From Prolixibacteraceae bacterium (GTDB lineage: Bacteria > Bacteroidota > Bacteroidia > Bacteroidales > Prolixibacteraceae): DNA of 14,729 bases. The stretch is from NCBI GenBank assembly GCA_016788685.1, contig JAEUSS010000380.1, positions 1 to 14,729 of the forward strand, written 5' to 3'. The notes beneath the pieces were generated by a model, which was not told the DNA's origin, made no database searches, and saw only the letters and a list, made by a program, of their open reading frames with translations. Shown piece by piece: positions 2,211 through 14,729 of this stretch. The position numbers were made by a program, and so were the translations under genes. How positions within the stretch are numbered: position 1 is the first letter of the stretch; the number at the start of each line of letters is the position of its first letter.

Positions 2211-2514
2211 GGTAATAAATTTTAATTGTTTTTAAAGTTTTCATTGTAACACGTATACATAACAGCTTGTTCAGATTGTTATGTTTCAATCTGCGTTACC
2301 TGAAGAGGCTGAGATCCGGATATTACAATCAACACTCTATAGGTTCCGATAGCTATTAACGTTTTTTTACCAAAATATTTTATGTCATCCGAAAAAAATA
2401 TTCGTCTCGCCAACGGTTTCTTATTCTCTTTCAGGCTTCGCCCCAGATTTATTTGCTCCTGCTTGCATTTCATCTCCACTTGTGTGTAATTTGCAGTCAC
2501 AAAATATTCACTAT
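2211..2514. other. Divergent intergenic region before hydF
   Basis: This gap separates the minus-strand barrel gene from hydF and must hold both promoters. I see no canonical TAnnTTTG element with a well-spaced TTTG on either strand. The nearest on the plus strand is TAATTTG at 2487-2493, one base short of consensus, 22 nt before the ATG at 2515. A 64-codon minus-strand frame (2473 to 2279) lies here but has no supporting signature. Confidence 0.35.
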
Positions 2515-3741
2515 ATGATGCGGTCTCCAAAATCATTCCGACTCCATATCGGCCTTTTCGGGCGCCGAAACTCAGGCAAATCATCCATCCTGAATGCCCT
2601 GACCAGCCAGGAAGTGTCCATTGTTTCCGAAATCGCCGGAACAACCACCGATCCGGTAGAGAAACCGATGGAGCTGCTCCCGCTCGGCCCGGTACTTTTT
2701 ATCGACACCGCCGGAGTGGATGATACAGGAGCATTGGGTGAAAAACGAATCCAAAAAACCATGCAGGTTTTCGACCGGACTGAACTTGGACTGATTATTT
2801 CCAAATCAGATGAGTGGGGCGATTTTGAGGAAGATATACTGAAAGAACTGAAGGATCGGGCAATTCCGGTAATTGTTGTATTCAACAAATGCGATCTGAC
2901 TCCGGCAAATCGTTGTCAGCCAACAGGTTTTTCAGGAGAAAAGATTCCGGTAGTAGAAACCTCGGCTCTTACCGGAAAGGGAATTCAGGATTTACGGCAG
3001 GCCATACTCAATCACGCTCCTGACGACTTTATCAATCGCCCCGCCATTGTCTCCGACCTGGTTGGCCCGGGCGAGATGGCCGTGCTGGTAGTGCCGATTG
3101 ACAAGGAAGCACCCAAAGGGCGGCTTATCCTGCCTCAGGTTCAGGCTATCCGCGATTTGCTCGATGCCAGTTCGTTCTGTGTCGTAGTCAAAGAGCGCGA
3201 ACTTTCTGAAGTCTTTACCCGCTTTACCAAGCCGCCCAAACTGGTGGTCACCGATAGTCAGGCATTTCAGAAAGTGGCTGCCGACACACCTCCCGAGATA
3301 CCACTGACCAGCTTTTCCATCCTTTTTGCCCGTTTCCAGGGCGATCTTCAGGAAATGGTTAAAGGCGCAATGACGATCAGCCAATTGAAGGCGGGCGACA
3401 AAGTGCTTGTTGCCGAAGCCTGCTCGCACCACCCGATTGGCGAAGACATCGGTACTGTAAAAATCCCTCGCTGGCTCAACCAGTATGTTGGCGGGCAACT
3501 GGAATTTGTCCATCACCGCGGACACGACTTCCCGTCCAACCTGTCGGAATTTAAGCTGATTATTCACTGCGGCGCCTGTATGTGGAACCGGCGCGAAATG
3601 CTTTCACGGATTATGCGTGCGAAATCAGCGGGTGTCCCTTTGACCAATTATGGATTAACAATTGCTTACTCATTGGGCATTTTCGAACGCGCACTTCAAC
3701 CATTTCCGGCTGCACTGGAAATGTATCGGGCAACCCGCTAA
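2515..3741 (+). CDS. hydF: [FeFe]-hydrogenase H-cluster maturation GTPase HydF
   Basis: HydF is the scaffold/carrier that assembles the 2Fe subcluster made by HydE and HydG and transfers it to the [FeFe]-hydrogenase. Numbering from ATG 2515 (408 residues, normal for the family), the GTPase domain shows the P-loop GRRNSGKS (16-23), switch T43-T45, DTAG (64-67) and NKCD (124-127). The C-terminal cluster-binding motif is intact: C303-S-H305, 45 residues, then H351-C352-G-A-C355, matching CxHx(~45-53)HCxxC. An in-frame GTG at 2482 would add 11 residues, but it overlaps the likely promoter. ATG 2515 or 2518 leads straight into the conserved FRLHIGLFG strand. No hydE, hydG or hydrogenase gene is in the window. 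A second cytosolic GTPase such as Der/MnmE is excluded by the Cys/His motif. Confidence 0.95.
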   Translation: MMRSPKSFRLHIGLFGRRNSGKSSILNALTSQEVSIVSEIAGTTTDPVEKPMELLPLGPVLFIDTAGVDDTGALGEKRIQKTMQVFDRTELGLIISKSDEWGDFEEDILKELKDRAIPVIVVFNKCDLTPANRCQPTGFSGEKIPVVETSALTGKGIQDLRQAILNHAPDDFINRPAIVSDLVGPGEMAVLVVPIDKEAPKGRLILPQVQAIRDLLDASSFCVVVKERELSEVFTRFTKPPKLVVTDSQAFQKVAADTPPEIPLTSFSILFARFQGDLQEMVKGAMTISQLKAGDKVLVAEACSHHPIGEDIGTVKIPRWLNQYVGGQLEFVHHRGHDFPSNLSEFKLIIHCGACMWNRREMLSRIMRAKSAGVPLTNYGLTIAYSLGIFERALQPFPAALEMYRATR

Positions 3742-10405: not shown

Positions 10406-11587
10406 TTACCTGAGAAAACCGGCCACTTTATCAAACACCAGTCTGAAACTTGCATCTACCTGATCATAAATCCGTTCGTTGCCTGTCGGGAACGGGATTT
10501 CGTGAGTATAAGAGTACGGAAAGTCAATAATTTCCACCCGGGTAGGTATGTCCTTCTGCGGGTTCTGTAAAGTAGCCAGGATATCCGCCGGCGGGAAAAC
10601 GGTGTCGCGCGCCAGACCGATAGCGAAAATCCGGTTCCCGACTTTATTCAGCACCTCATTACGCTCCTGCTGCCCTTCTTTCAGGAAAGTCATATACCAC
10701 AAGGTTTTCCAGATACTTTTTAACTCCGGAAGGCAAATCGGCCTCAGATATGCTCTCAGCCGCCGGAAATTTCCGGATGTTGCCAGCCCGTTGAGCCTCC
10801 GGAAAGCCCTGTTATCCATAATGAAGCGTGAAACACCGTTCATGCGGTCGAACGTTGCTCCCCCGCAAAAAAGACATAATTTTGTCTGGTCAAAAAGTTT
10901 TAAGGGGTTGCGCATGATCAACAGCTCCGATAAAAAAGCGCCTATCGAATACGAAAAAATATTAAGCCGGGTATTGCGGGCAAACAGCGGGTGTCTTCCT
11001 TCTTTCAGGGTCAGCGCAAACTGAACCACATCCAGATAACTCTGCATCCCGGAGAGTATAAACTGCTCCGGATAGTTTTCCAAACGGACACTGAGTGCCG
11101 CATTCAGGTAGCTCGAGTCTCTCAGGTCATTGAAACTAGCCTTCCGCTGTGCCGAAACTACCGACATGACCCTCGGATCATTCCATGCCCCGGGCGACCG
11201 GTTCATATGAAAAGCCAGCGGAAAAAGAATCACCGCCTGTCCGGTCTGTTCCGAAAGATATTTGGCCCACACCAGGTATTTGCTCCACGAACGTTCGTTT
11301 AAACCATGCAGCAGCAAAATGGCTTCATCGTTCTTAACTTTCTCTCCGGAAAGAATGATTGGATAAGTAAAACTGTCATTTAACTGAAGTTTAGCTTCCA
11401 TGAGTCCCGCATCAAAGCATCTCCATATCGGTTGTTTTTCCGGAGCAACCACTGCCGGGAAATGGGAATCAAACCGGCAATTGATGATTTCTGTCGACAA
11501 ATCATCAATCCGGATATTAGCCTGATCCATACGAAAACACTGGCTCAGTATTTTTTGCTGAAACGGAAAACTCATCACCTTCACCAT
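10406..11587 (-). CDS. Alpha/beta-hydrolase-fold protein, DUF6051-like
   Basis: The 393-residue product carries an oxyanion-type LLLHGLNERSW (91-101) and a nucleophile elbow FSYSIGAF with Ser214. It has a candidate acid, Asp328 (GLARDTVFPP), and a candidate base, His362 (YSYTHEIPF). The order Ser-Asp-His fits the alpha/beta-hydrolase triad. The elbow reads S-Y-S-I-G rather than G-x-S-x-G. From memory the length and the ~80-residue N-terminal extension resemble the Bacteroidota family DUF6051. There is no signal peptide, so it is probably cytosolic; the substrate is unknown. MVKVMSFPF offers two starts, M1 at 11587 or M5. The gene is convergent with nadD and divergent from the LytTR gene. Confidence 0.8.
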   Translation of the reverse strand: MVKVMSFPFQQKILSQCFRMDQANIRIDDLSTEIINCRFDSHFPAVVAPEKQPIWRCFDAGLMEAKLQLNDSFTYPIILSGEKVKNDEAILLLHGLNERSWSKYLVWAKYLSEQTGQAVILFPLAFHMNRSPGAWNDPRVMSVVSAQRKASFNDLRDSSYLNAALSVRLENYPEQFILSGMQSYLDVVQFALTLKEGRHPLFARNTRLNIFSYSIGAFLSELLIMRNPLKLFDQTKLCLFCGGATFDRMNGVSRFIMDNRAFRRLNGLATSGNFRRLRAYLRPICLPELKSIWKTLWYMTFLKEGQQERNEVLNKVGNRIFAIGLARDTVFPPADILATLQNPQKDIPTRVEIIDFPYSYTHEIPFPTGNERIYDQVDASFRLVFDKVAGFLR

Positions 11588-11861
11588 AGCATCAAAACAT
11601 TAAATATCAAATAATTACACAAACAAAATCAATTTTGAAATTCGAAAAATAAAAATGGTGCTAATCTCCCGATGCAGGGACGAAATAGAAGAAGAGGGAT
11701 GGAAACTGCTATTGCGGGGTGAAATTCAGGAGCCACTCTCAGCCCCTTCGACACGGCAGCACCCTGATTTTGAGTACCCGCCAGAAAATTAGGGCTTCAG
11801 CTCCAAACGCCTGAAAAATATGGTTACTTTTATAGTCAGAACAAACCAACAGGACAATTGC
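11588..11861. other. Divergent intergenic region between the hydrolase and LytTR genes
   Basis: This region should contain back-to-back promoters. The hydrolase-proximal half is AT-rich and includes a short palindrome, CAAAAT-CA-ATTTTG (11624-11637), followed by another A/T-rich partial palindrome; it is a candidate operator. A 45-codon plus-strand frame (11655-11792) is present but shows no family signature or ribosome-binding site. I could not place a convincing TTTG/TAnnTTTG pair for either gene. Confidence 0.35.
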
Positions 11862-12734
11862 ATGGAAAAGGTACAGCGGGAAATACCTGATTTCTTTATC
11901 AATAAAAAAAATACCGTGATCCAGATTGTTTTCACTACGGTATTTGCTTTCGTATTCATCAATATTTACAAACCTTTTGGTTCTCAACACTGGTATAATA
12001 TTACCCAACTGCAGTTTTTTTTCTTCTCCGGATTATTAGTTTTACAAGGCATGCTGGTTGTTCTGCTAAGCCGCGTCATTCTTTTCAGGATCAAAAAATA
12101 CTGTTCGGTTACCATCCGGGATTATGCGCTGATGATAGCGCTCGAAATTATTGTGATGGCCGCATTCTACGCCACCTACGAAAAGCTGATCATCAAAGAT
12201 TCGCGTTCGTTCTTAATGCTGTGGTACGTAGCAAGCGGCAACACTTCACTGATCCTGCTTTGTCCGTACCTGATCAGCTCGCTCTATTTTGCCTGGGAAG
12301 ATAAAAAACATAAGCTCGAAAAGCTGATAAAAGAAAAAAACAGCGCGAACCCCATACCTTTTATTTCATTTTACGACGAAAAAGAAGCCTTAAAACTGAC
12401 CATCAAAACTACCAACCTTCTTTATATTGAGTCAAGCGACAATTACGTTACGATACATTATGCCAACGGCTTTGCCCTTGAAAAATATCTGTTACGCAAT
12501 AGCCTGAAACAGATGGAAAAGATGCTTTGCAAGTACCCCGTAATCCGGTGCCACCGGTCATTCATGGTCAGTATCAGCCAGATAAAGAAAGTCCGAAAAG
12601 GCAAAAAGGGTTACGAAATTGAAATGAATATGCCCGACCGCAAGGTTCTTCCGGTTACAAAAACCTACGAACAAGAAGTCCTGCAATGTTTTCATCCGGG
12701 ACGAAAGCCGGCCCAAAGCCGTGAAAATGAATAA
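11862..12734 (+). CDS. Membrane-anchored LytTR DNA-binding regulator
   Basis: Taking ATG 11862 (MEKVQREIPD), the protein has 290 residues. Four membrane helices near residues 18-36, 50-72, 88-106 and 118-145 are followed by a short charged linker (KKHKLEKLIKEK). A LytTR domain follows at ~176-275, with LLYIESSDNYVTIHY (187-201), VIRCHRSFMVSISQIKKV (227-244) and the final LPVTKTYEQEV. LytTR domains bind direct-repeat promoter sites. The four-helix membrane version is common in Bacteroidota and probably senses a membrane or extracellular signal without a separate kinase. A further in-frame ATG at 11820 would add 14 polar residues (VTFIVRTNQQDNC) and looks less natural. No partner sensor kinase is adjacent. 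The target genes are unknown; self-regulation or control of the divergent hydrolase is possible. Confidence 0.88.
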   Translation: MEKVQREIPDFFINKKNTVIQIVFTTVFAFVFINIYKPFGSQHWYNITQLQFFFFSGLLVLQGMLVVLLSRVILFRIKKYCSVTIRDYALMIALEIIVMAAFYATYEKLIIKDSRSFLMLWYVASGNTSLILLCPYLISSLYFAWEDKKHKLEKLIKEKNSANPIPFISFYDEKEALKLTIKTTNLLYIESSDNYVTIHYANGFALEKYLLRNSLKQMEKMLCKYPVIRCHRSFMVSISQIKKVRKGKKGYEIEMNMPDRKVLPVTKTYEQEVLQCFHPGRKPAQSRENE

Positions 12735-12813: not shown

Positions 12814-12829
12814 TATATTTGTATATTTG
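12814..12829 (+). promoter_or_regulatory. Candidate -7 element(s) of the molybdenum-cofactor operon
   Basis: TATATTTG occurs twice in tandem (12814-12821 and 12822-12829), each matching TAnnTTTG. No TTTG sits at the expected -33 distance, so support is partial. Initiation near 12836 would place the whole structured leader in the transcript. Confidence 0.45.
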
Positions 12830-12838
12830 CATGTATTG

Positions 12839-12982
12839 AAAACTCCGAGTTTTGAAGGCTAAGTTCACCGGATATGCCTTCACAACCATTGGGCCGAAAG
12901 CGGAAACGTTTCGGCCTCCCGATTTCCGCAGTGGCGGAATGAATCCGGAAAGGAGCAGTTGTAAGCCGTCATCCGGCCTGCT
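12839..12982 (+). promoter_or_regulatory. Molybdenum-cofactor (Moco) riboswitch aptamer
   Basis: The leader of the MobB-like/moeA operon contains GGGCCGAAA (12891-12899), which pairs with TTTCGGCC (12909-12916) through CG pairs and a GAAA tetraloop (12903-12906). It is followed at once by TCCCG and then by GGAAAGG (12947-12953). The GGGC-GAA...TTCG-CCTCCCG...GGAAAGG order matches the Moco riboswitch as I remember it from the E. coli moaA leader. Upstream, GAAGGC (12854-12859) pairs with GCCTTC (12876-12881). An extra hairpin (12923-12929 with 12934-12940) sits between CCCG and GGAAAGG. A closing helix may be CTCC 12843-12846 with GGAG 12952-12955, or AACT 12841-12844 with AGTT 12957-12960; I could not decide. 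The downstream genes are Mo-cofactor genes, which supports the call independently. Confidence 0.85.
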
Positions 12983-13021
12983 GTTAATGCCTCTTTCCAA
13001 CAAATTTTGAAAGGCATTAAC
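12983..13021 (+). promoter_or_regulatory. Riboswitch expression platform hairpin hiding the ribosome-binding site
   Basis: Positions 12983-12997 (GTTAATGCCTCTTTC) pair over 13 bp, with a 2-nt bulge, with 13009-13021 (GAAAGGCATTAAC). The 3' arm contains the only Shine-Dalgarno-like sequence, GAAAGG (13009-13014), and ends on the base before the ATG at 13022. The same CTTTCC (12993-12998) can instead pair with the conserved GGAAAG of the aptamer (12947-12952), so the two folds exclude each other. This points to translational rather than transcriptional control; there is no U-tract after the hairpin. Confidence 0.75.
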
Positions 13022-13570
13022 ATGACGCAAACTTCGAAAAATATTCTGTTGGTTTCGGGCTCCGGACAAAATGTCGGTAAAACAAGTTTCATTTGCCGGA
13101 TGATCACTCAGTACACCAACCGTCAGCCCGTTGCAATAAAAATCACCCCGCATTTTCATCACCCGTCCGATGGGCTACGGCCGGTAATCGTTACCGACAA
13201 CTACCGGATTTTTCAGGAAACAGATCCGAATACAACGAAAGACAGCTCGCGTTTTTTACAAGCCGGCGCCAAACTCGTTTTTTACATTCAGACAACCGAT
13301 GCTTTTCTGAAAGAAGCTTTTATGCTGACAAGCCGGCAAATCGCACCTGACCAACCTGTTATTATTGAGTCTGCGGCATTACGGAAATTTATCACCCCCG
13401 GACTTTATCTTTTTATTCAGAAAAAATATGAAGAGGTTAAACCTTCGGCTCTCGAAATGCAAAAACTGGCCGATGCCACTGTTTTTTCAGACGGAGAATG
13501 TTTCAGCATTCAACCTGAACGGATAATTTTTGATCAAACCTGGAAAATAAAACATGATGATAACGCTTGA
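13022..13570 (+). CDS. MobB-like P-loop NTPase of molybdenum-cofactor metabolism
   Basis: The 182-residue protein has a P-loop GSGQNVGKT (13-21) after the first strand. It continues with a KITPHFHH segment (40-47), and TTKDSSRFLQAGAKLVFYI (71-89) resembles the DSxRxxxAGA stretch of MobB. PVIIES then sits where MobB carries its conserved acidic strand. MobB binds GTP and assists MobA in attaching GMP to molybdopterin. The fit is good in layout but the P-loop is divergent (QNVGKT rather than SGSGKTT), so I give no gene symbol. ATG 13022 is chosen over the in-frame TTG at 13007 because that TTG lies within the regulatory hairpin. The gene follows the Moco riboswitch and overlaps moeA by 17 nt. 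Confidence 0.82.
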   Translation: MTQTSKNILLVSGSGQNVGKTSFICRMITQYTNRQPVAIKITPHFHHPSDGLRPVIVTDNYRIFQETDPNTTKDSSRFLQAGAKLVFYIQTTDAFLKEAFMLTSRQIAPDQPVIIESAALRKFITPGLYLFIQKKYEEVKPSALEMQKLADATVFSDGECFSIQPERIIFDQTWKIKHDDNA

Positions 13571-14729
13571 ACAAGCCATTGCAATTGCTTTTCGGGAAGC
13601 CCGACCGATGGACACCGAAACCATTCCGTTTATGCAGTCGTCGGGCCGCATTCTGGCGCAGGATGTATTTGCAGATGCCGATATGCCGCCCTTCAACAAA
13701 TCGGCGATGGACGGATACGCATGCCGGCACGAAGACTTGGGTAAAGAACTTATCCTGCTCGAAGTTATTCCGGCAGGAAAAACTCCCGACCAGCCTGTCG
13801 AACCCGGTTACTGCTCCAAAATCATGACCGGAGCACAGGTTCCGGAAGGTGCCGATACGGTTTTTATGGTAGAATATTCAGCAGAGACGCCTTCGGGTAA
13901 AATTCGTTTTACCGGCGAAAAAACCAATCCGAACATTTGTGTCCAGGGCGAAGACCTGAAAAAAGGCGACACGGTTTTAACTGCCCGCACCGAGCTCAAA
14001 CCGCAGCACATTGCCATACTTGCATCGGTTGGATGCGTTGCTCCCACGGTATACCAAATGCCGGTTTTGGGGCTGATCTCAACCGGCTCGGAGCTGGTAT
14101 CCCCTGAAGACAAACCGGAACAATCACAAATCCGGAACTCGAACGGCCCTCAACTTTCTGCTCAGGCGGCAAAATACGGGTTCCCGGTCAATTATTACGG
14201 AATTGTGCCCGACAACAAACCCCTGACCTCCCGGATTATTCAACGATCGGTAGACGAAAGCGATGTGACCATCCTTTCCGGGGGAGTTTCGGTGGGCGAT
14301 TTTGATTTTGTGCCCCGGATTATCCGGGAGTTGGGCTTCGAAATCCACTTCAGCAAAATCGCCATTAAACCCGGACAGCACACTACTTTTGCGTCAAAAG
14401 ACGGCAAATACATCATCGGCTTGCCCGGCAACCCCGTTTCATCGTTTATCCAGTTTGAAGTTTTTGTGCTCCCTTTTCTCCGGAAACTGATGAACTACGA
14501 ACAGCGGGAGATTCGCCTGCCGCTGCCTGCAAGTCAGGATTTCAGACGAAAAAAATCGGACCGGGAAGAATGCCTCCCGGTTTGCATTACGGATCAAAAC
14601 GAAGTACAATTAATTGACTATCACGGATCAGCCCATATCCATGCCTACCACCAGGCATTCGGGTTTATCAATATTCCGGCGGGAAAAACTGAAATAAAAA
14701 AAGGAGAACTGGTGTATGTTCGACCGCTT
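13554..14729 (+). CDS. moeA: Molybdopterin molybdenumtransferase MoeA, 3' end outside the window
   Basis: MoeA inserts molybdate into adenylylated molybdopterin, the last step of Mo-cofactor formation. The 392 visible codons carry the family signatures PPFNKSAMDGYA (45-56), MTGAQVPEGADTV (91-103), STGSELV (176-182), NSNGPQL (195-201), SGGVSVGD (242-249) and GLPGNPVSSF (289-298). They reach the C-terminal beta domain (KKGELVYVRPL). No stop codon occurs before the window ends, but family length suggests only a few residues are missing. Two adjacent ATGs (13554 and 13557) are possible starts; both lie inside the MobB-like gene, so translation is coupled. Control by the upstream riboswitch would therefore extend to moeA. 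A tungsten-specific paralogue cannot be excluded from sequence alone. Confidence 0.95.
   Translation, partial: MMITLEQAIAIAFREARPMDTETIPFMQSSGRILAQDVFADADMPPFNKSAMDGYACRHEDLGKELILLEVIPAGKTPDQPVEPGYCSKIMTGAQVPEGADTVFMVEYSAETPSGKIRFTGEKTNPNICVQGEDLKKGDTVLTARTELKPQHIAILASVGCVAPTVYQMPVLGLISTGSELVSPEDKPEQSQIRNSNGPQLSAQAAKYGFPVNYYGIVPDNKPLTSRIIQRSVDESDVTILSGGVSVGDFDFVPRIIRELGFEIHFSKIAIKPGQHTTFASKDGKYIIGLPGNPVSSFIQFEVFVLPFLRKLMNYEQREIRLPLPASQDFRRKKSDREECLPVCITDQNEVQLIDYHGSAHIHAYHQAFGFINIPAGKTEIKKGELVYVRPL

Follow-up and report, generated by a model that had tools for sequence, protein, structure and literature searches.

Does the leader ahead of two molybdenum-cofactor genes in a Prolixibacteraceae genome belong to the Moco riboswitch family, which metal form of the cofactor would it sense, and how would it act on the genes downstream? 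A sequence-only reading of the stretch of DNA analyzed here (the window, 14,729 nt) had placed such a riboswitch at 12839-12982, and had suggested a covariance-model search. The search was run, and RF01055 (Rfam; Molybdenum/Tungsten riboswitch aptamer) matches positions 12831-12971 of the plus strand at 60.8 bits, well above the gathering score of 36 (E 8.7e-13), over the full length of the model (1-135 of 135). The same aptamer searched on 501 bases alone gives E 3e-14. The match is the only one at gathering level within the 14.7 kb, and the genome (3.76 Mb, 654 contigs, 97.9% complete) carries a single RF01055 copy. The element reported earlier is real, its borders being shifted by about 10 nt relative to the model match, and the GAAA-capped stem and the core strands it was recognized by are present in the sequence, with coordinates checked. 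None of the plasmid records matched the leader. At the sequence level, the leader RNA is confirmed as a genuine member of the Moco riboswitch family, P3-less type, in a Bacteroidales genome. The aptamer is made up of the following parts:

12831-12971, plus strand: Moco riboswitch aptamer, P3-less type, from the RF01055 model match
12843-12846, plus strand: 5' strand of P1, CTCC, pairing with GGAG at 12952-12955
12843-12849, plus strand: CTCCGAG element, read in the sequence
12849-12859, plus strand: 5' strand of P2, pairing with 12876-12886 (10 of 11 pairs)
12876-12886, plus strand: 3' strand of P2, partner of 12849-12859
12887-12890, plus strand: P2-P4 junction CATT, 4 nt, at the usual place of P3, the P3 model positions being deleted
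12891-12917, plus strand: P4 with the GAAA tetraloop at 12903-12906, from model alignment and sequence
12915-12921, plus strand: CCTCCCG core element, read in the sequence
12947-12955, plus strand: GGAAAGGAG, conserved 3' strand of the aptamer, from model alignment and sequence

The P3 hairpin is deleted from the window RNA in the model alignment, P2 and P4 being joined by 4 nt. All 25 RNAs detected in the order lack P3, 24 residing in the family of the window (f1, probably Prolixibacteraceae) and one in another family. The P2-P4 junction measures 2-5 nt in 23 of them at the first placement of P2; in the remaining two, L094 and L109, P2 forms 8 and 9 of 11 pairs once the junction is held short. 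The repeat placement, restricted to junctions of 2-5 nt with the best one kept, carries a mild bias, and six loci (L094, L109, L079, L081, L082 and L085) are read from it. Among 20 more distant Bacteroidota loci 14 read as P3-less, five carry an insert of 25-52 nt, and one (L087 in genome G074, 33.2 bits, no CTCCGA) is unreadable and was excluded from the junction reading; a further RF01055 match (G285, 30.2 bits) was set aside, its core being unreadable. Ten of the 14 are P3-less by first placement, and L079, L081, L082 and L085 by the short junction, with 6-8 of 11 pairs, L082 fitting only 6. The inserts of L083 and L084 are less certain, because in both a short junction, too, lets P2 form 9 of 11 pairs; P2 of L083 forms 11 of 11 pairs with the insert kept, and Rfam aligns a P3 in L084. 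Two hairpins (38-52 nt) are found between P2 and P4, where a single P3 is usual, in L069, L071, L076 and L083.

Covariation in the stems, a check suggested along with the model search, was found among the relatives. Across the 25 Bacteroidales loci, 243 of 275 P2 cells are in standard pairs, a percentage somewhat biased by placing the 3' strand by best pairing within narrow limits. Each of P2 positions 4-10 features 4-6 standard pair types, a diversity of sequence that the placement bias does not explain, and P4 positions 3-7 feature 3-5 types. The GAAA tetraloop is invariant in the 38 aligned sequences of the 39 RNAs read as P3-less (L080 being left out).

Upstream and downstream of the aptamer the window holds these elements:

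12814-12829, plus strand: two TATATTTG copies, at 12814-12821 and 12822-12829, fitting the consensus TAnnTTTG
12978-12998, plus strand: putative anti-aptamer strand, CTGCT at 12978-12982 and CTCTTTCC at 12991-12998, from complementarity
12982-13022, plus strand: hairpin, 12982-12992 plus 12995-12997 pairing with 13009-13022, from folding against shuffles
13022-13570, plus strand: MobB-like P-loop protein, 182 aa, from profile searches and a structure model
13557-14729, plus strand: moeA, incomplete at the contig end, with PF03453, PF00994 and PF03454

The MobB-like gene and moeA overlap by 14 nt, and the contig of the window stops inside moeA. The presence of two molybdenum-cofactor genes behind the RNA, noted already from sequence alone, holds for the window and for the whole set, the pair lying downstream of the RNA in 25 of 25 loci; in L090, L091, L093, L105 and L110 another gene or two precede it. 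The notion that the RNA serves moeA instead of moaA had to be given up: in a relative (G416) the same row runs on after moeA into a short moaA, moaC and a MOSC-mogA fusion. The MoaA encoded there (L096:3890-4684) is 265 aa long and scores 282.3 bits with TIGR02666, just below the cut-off of 284.05, its C-terminal domain being only partly matched.

A canonical MobB is not reached by sequence, PF03205 matching the protein of the window at 18.8 bits (E 0.0016), below the Pfam cut-off of 26.6. The same model matches 8 of 12 relatives at E <= 1, at best 2.7e-4. Alignment with E. coli MobB by hhalign, a single comparison, gave 26.8% probability and E 6.8e-4, the aligned parts being the P-loop, an IK..H stretch and KDS...AGA. 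The structure model (pLDDT 92.8) is that of a P-loop NTPase, with MobB, HypB and UreG among its matches. MobB-like seems a fair label for the 13022-13570 product, membership in MobB proper lying below the Pfam cut-off.

Other genes of the window include HydF, the [FeFe] hydrogenase maturation GTPase, at 2482-3741 (560.2 bits), and, between nadD and the riboswitch (10406-12734), a minus-strand gene for a DUF6051 protein (PF19519, 348.5 bits) and one for a LytTR protein. In G405 nadD and the riboswitch are direct neighbors.

RF01055 elements were monitored in 61 relatives and found in 25: the window's own family contributes 24 of its 37 genomes, the other families of the order 1 of 24; the RF01055 search found no Moco RNA in 13 of the 37. 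Genomes drawn over the phylum carry matches in 21 of 395 cases, 19 above cut-off. Among 14 named control genomes, Bacteroides ihuae included, only E. coli and Thermus composti gave matches. No report of a Moco riboswitch in Bacteroidota was recognized in the literature searched, and an earlier listing of Bacteroidota members in Rfam is possible. The abstract of Regulski et al. 2008 does not name Bacteroidetes (PMC2408646), and passages of a 2013 survey give Bacteroidaceae only two RNA regulogs and call the Moco RNA 'sporadic' outside gamma-Proteobacteria (PMC3766115). The sequence-only reading expected an extension of range beyond Proteobacteria, Firmicutes and Actinobacteria. The Bacteroidota member stands, but it is not the first such case, a Calditrichaeota one being already published (PMC5317091). 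The Moco riboswitch is little described in this bacterial group; the present data give it a firm place in one Bacteroidales family, where the gene row behind it is conserved.

The Bacteroidota -7 promoter has the consensus TAnnTTTG. Of the 25 Bacteroidales loci, 18 have a motif of this type (17 TATATTTG, 1 TATTTTTG) at a distance of 7-17 nt upstream of the aptamer; a scan for sigma-70-type sites gave 2 sites vs. 0.7 expected. By its sequence the upstream TAnnTTTG fits a Bacteroidota promoter, and a transcript from this putative promoter would start at about the first bases of the aptamer.

CTGCT and CTCTTTCC of the putative anti-aptamer strand are complementary to AGCAG at 12954-12958 and GGAAAG at 12947-12952, respectively. 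In the predicted fold, the ribosome-binding region and the first base of the ATG lie within the 12982-13022 hairpin, which has -16 kcal/mol and z -4.24; none of 200 shuffles did as well. In a wider frame the values are z -2.84 and p 0.015, the whole AUG being 0.65 unpaired, and 7 of 23 leaders have a significant hairpin at the start. These 23 leaders are related, not independent, in all counts given here; their start codons were picked by eye, that of L093 being one base off, and L105 and L110 were left out because the start codon adjoins the aptamer. In folding, P1 is favored with the aptamer alone in 23 of 23 leaders, and disfavored in 22 of 23 once the leader is extended to 20 nt short of the start codon. 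The values for P1 of the window are +4.6 kcal/mol (aptamer alone), -1.7 (to 20 nt before the start) and +1.2 (full leader). Compared with shuffled tails, the shift of P1 goes beyond the shuffle mean in 22 of 23 leaders (mean z -1.37; p < 0.05 in 7 of 23); that of the window is not distinct (p 0.33). For 16 of 23 leaders the best site of anti-aptamer pairing is 30 to 38 nt upstream of the start, and the pairing reaches p < 0.05 against shuffles in 3 of 23, the window giving p 0.07. At equilibrium, the ribosome-binding region of the window is covered with or without P1 (0.23 vs. 0.25 unpaired). Folding, by these three comparisons, did not show switching for the window leader. With this region covered whether or not P1 forms, a switch of the kind proposed below would have to be kinetic.

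No terminator was found in the window leader. A hairpin followed by a T-run, terminator-like by eye, is found in L092, L094, L101, L106 and L111, and L105 and L110 have their start codon directly next to P1. A single conserved platform was dropped, RNAalifold having given no consensus on the downstream regions of 13 relatives.

It is highly probable, in our judgement, that the leader is a Moco-family riboswitch working as a feedback OFF switch for the molybdenum-cofactor operon, an explanation in which the molybdenum ligand is the more likely one. Family membership, absence of P3, the conserved gene row and the hairpin are demonstrated here; the ligand, the direction of control, the strand exchange and the promoter we infer. 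Transcription would begin at or beside the aptamer. At low cofactor, the downstream CTGCT/CTCTTTCC strand would capture the conserved GGAAAGGAG during RNA synthesis, and with GGAAAGGAG captured the ribosome-binding region would remain free. With the cofactor bound, P1 and the core would be held and the downstream strand would pair with GAAAGGCATTAACA; the hairpin so formed would cover the ribosome-binding region together with the first base of the start codon, and lower translation. Cofactor binding would thus probably let the hairpin over the ribosome-binding region of the first gene persist. In relatives the same logic seems to operate through a terminator-like hairpin followed by T's, or through a ribosome-binding site beside P1. 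A degenerate aptamer that has lost its switch function would agree with the folding results for the window, yet is very improbable: across the family the core and the GAAA tetraloop have been kept and P2 shows covariation, which needs selection.

Regulski et al. linked P3-less Moco RNAs to the tungsten cofactor, 17 of 19 organisms with such RNAs in their 2008 survey having tungsten genes, with tupA/tupB and wtpA as markers (PMC2408646). AOR (PF01314) was added here as a tungsten marker. AOR is found in 5 of the 61 relatives and WtpA above cut-off in 4 of the same 5, and the RNA is absent from all five AOR and all four WtpA genomes. The 25 RNA-bearing genomes have no AOR (0/25) and no above-cut-off WtpA (0/25; the one sub-cut-off match, in G420, overlaps its ModA), while ModA is found in 17 and a PF00384 enzyme in all 25. 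The latter enzyme is found in 21 of 36 relatives lacking the RNA (Fisher p 1.3e-4, kinship uncorrected), and the association of AOR with absence of the RNA gives p 0.07. Four large PF00384 proteins of RNA-bearing genomes were scanned, and three of them (in G405, G422 and G398) were confirmed as NarG. Distant RNA-bearing genomes are similar as to tungsten markers (AOR 0 of 20; above-cut-off WtpA 0 of 19, with one weak match), ModA being found in 3 of 19.

The genome of the window has ModA (183.7 bits) and ModB (227.0 bits), both above cut-offs, a partial ModC-like protein below cut-off, and a DMSO-reductase-family enzyme which adjoins 4Fe-4S and NrfD-type proteins and has PhsA as best match, below cut-off (476.9 vs. 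694 bits). Profile searches found neither AOR nor WtpA in this genome, which is 97.9% complete, so that a gene may have been missed. It has no TupA-like PF12849 protein, the two matches being PstS (337.7 bits) and a LysR regulator; in the other 24 RNA-bearing genomes two PF12849 loci were viewed, and both lie, by eye, beside phosphate-type permeases. Matches to MOT1 (PF16983) occur in 27 of 61 genomes, 13 above cut-off, all of them weak, at 21-34 bits, the frames being 416-588 aa long. The match in the window's genome (28.0 bits) is below the cut-off of 30. The matching proteins are presumably sulphate-permease-like.

With AOR and above-cut-off WtpA missing and ModA common in the 25 RNA-bearing genomes of the order, the rule that P3-less means tungsten fails here by genomic markers, and in our reading absence of P3 is not a mark of tungsten use in this clade. 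The same markers make the molybdenum form the more likely ligand. Tungsten can, in some organisms, also be handled by molybdenum transporters and by enzymes of the DMSO reductase family. A tungsten-cofactor (Tuco) riboswitch would be in line with the lack of P3 in 25 of 25 RNAs of the order and with the 2008 survey, and the 24 RNA-bearing genomes other than the window's may have TupA. We consider it improbable nevertheless, in view of the distribution of AOR and WtpA (with AOR alone at p 0.07), of ModA and ModB and the identity of the PF12849 matches in the window's genome, and of the NarG proteins. Somewhat less improbable, while still unlikely, is an RNA sensing both metal forms, or metal-free molybdopterin, with P3 contributing stability and not metal choice. 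In its favor, Bacteroidota RNAs differ in having P3 or not while AOR and WtpA do not change accordingly, and in G148 different operons are headed by RNAs of two kinds, one P3-less and the other with a P3-like insert; against this, the E. coli RNA is reported to discriminate against Tuco, but it has a P3 (PMC2408646). As a tentative proposal, held with slightly more doubt than trust, P3-less Bacteroidota RNAs sense the molybdenum cofactor, so that P3 is not the Mo/W discriminator of 2008; the P3-less RNA is perhaps the plain form of the aptamer, to which P3, or two hairpins as in the four distant loci, were added. The 39 RNAs read as P3-less, from genomes in which no AOR or above-cut-off WtpA was found, make discrimination of molybdenum from tungsten directly testable, and provide a test case for metal recognition.

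Genes of a different type follow the RNA in eight distant loci (L068, L072, L073, L075, L077, L078, L079 and L081), where a P3-less RNA heads a row in which genes for two membrane proteins, the first predicted to have 5-6 helices and the second 2-4, are followed by one for a TonB-dependent receptor (639-668 aa; PF00593 and PF07715 in 8 of 8 cases). The row is a candidate for an uptake system under Moco control. Pfam scans of its two membrane proteins gave one weak match (PF09819) in L072, and none in the three other loci covered, L073, L075 and L077. G148 hosts two Moco RNAs, the P3-less one (L072) heading a TonB row, the one with a P3-like junction of 25 nt (L084) heading a row with MOSC and MoeA genes.

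The window RNA shares with the E. coli moaA Moco riboswitch P1, P2 with its inner stem, P4 with the GAAA tetraloop, the CCTCCCG and GGAAAGG core, and a location ahead of Moco biosynthesis genes. The E. coli leader keeps P3 and scores 103.6 bits with RF01055 as a control, whereas the window RNA, lacking P3, scores 60.8. The ribosome-binding site seems to lie within P1 in E. coli (PMC2408646), whereas in the window the ribosome-binding region is in a separate downstream hairpin. A 2025 paper reports that the E. coli riboswitch modulates transcription termination (PMC12121620). With the P3-less RNAs of Regulski et al. (58 of 176; PMC2408646) the Bacteroidales RNAs have in common the absence of P3 and the rest of the aptamer; they differ in that 17 of 19 of those organisms had tungsten genes, whereas the genomes analyzed here have ModA (17 of 25) and neither AOR nor above-cut-off WtpA. 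The Moco RNA of Caldithrix abyssi likewise belongs to a Moco biosynthesis locus of a non-classical phylum, though a different one, and a gene for a MOT1-type molybdate transporter follows 1130 nt downstream of it (PMC5317091).
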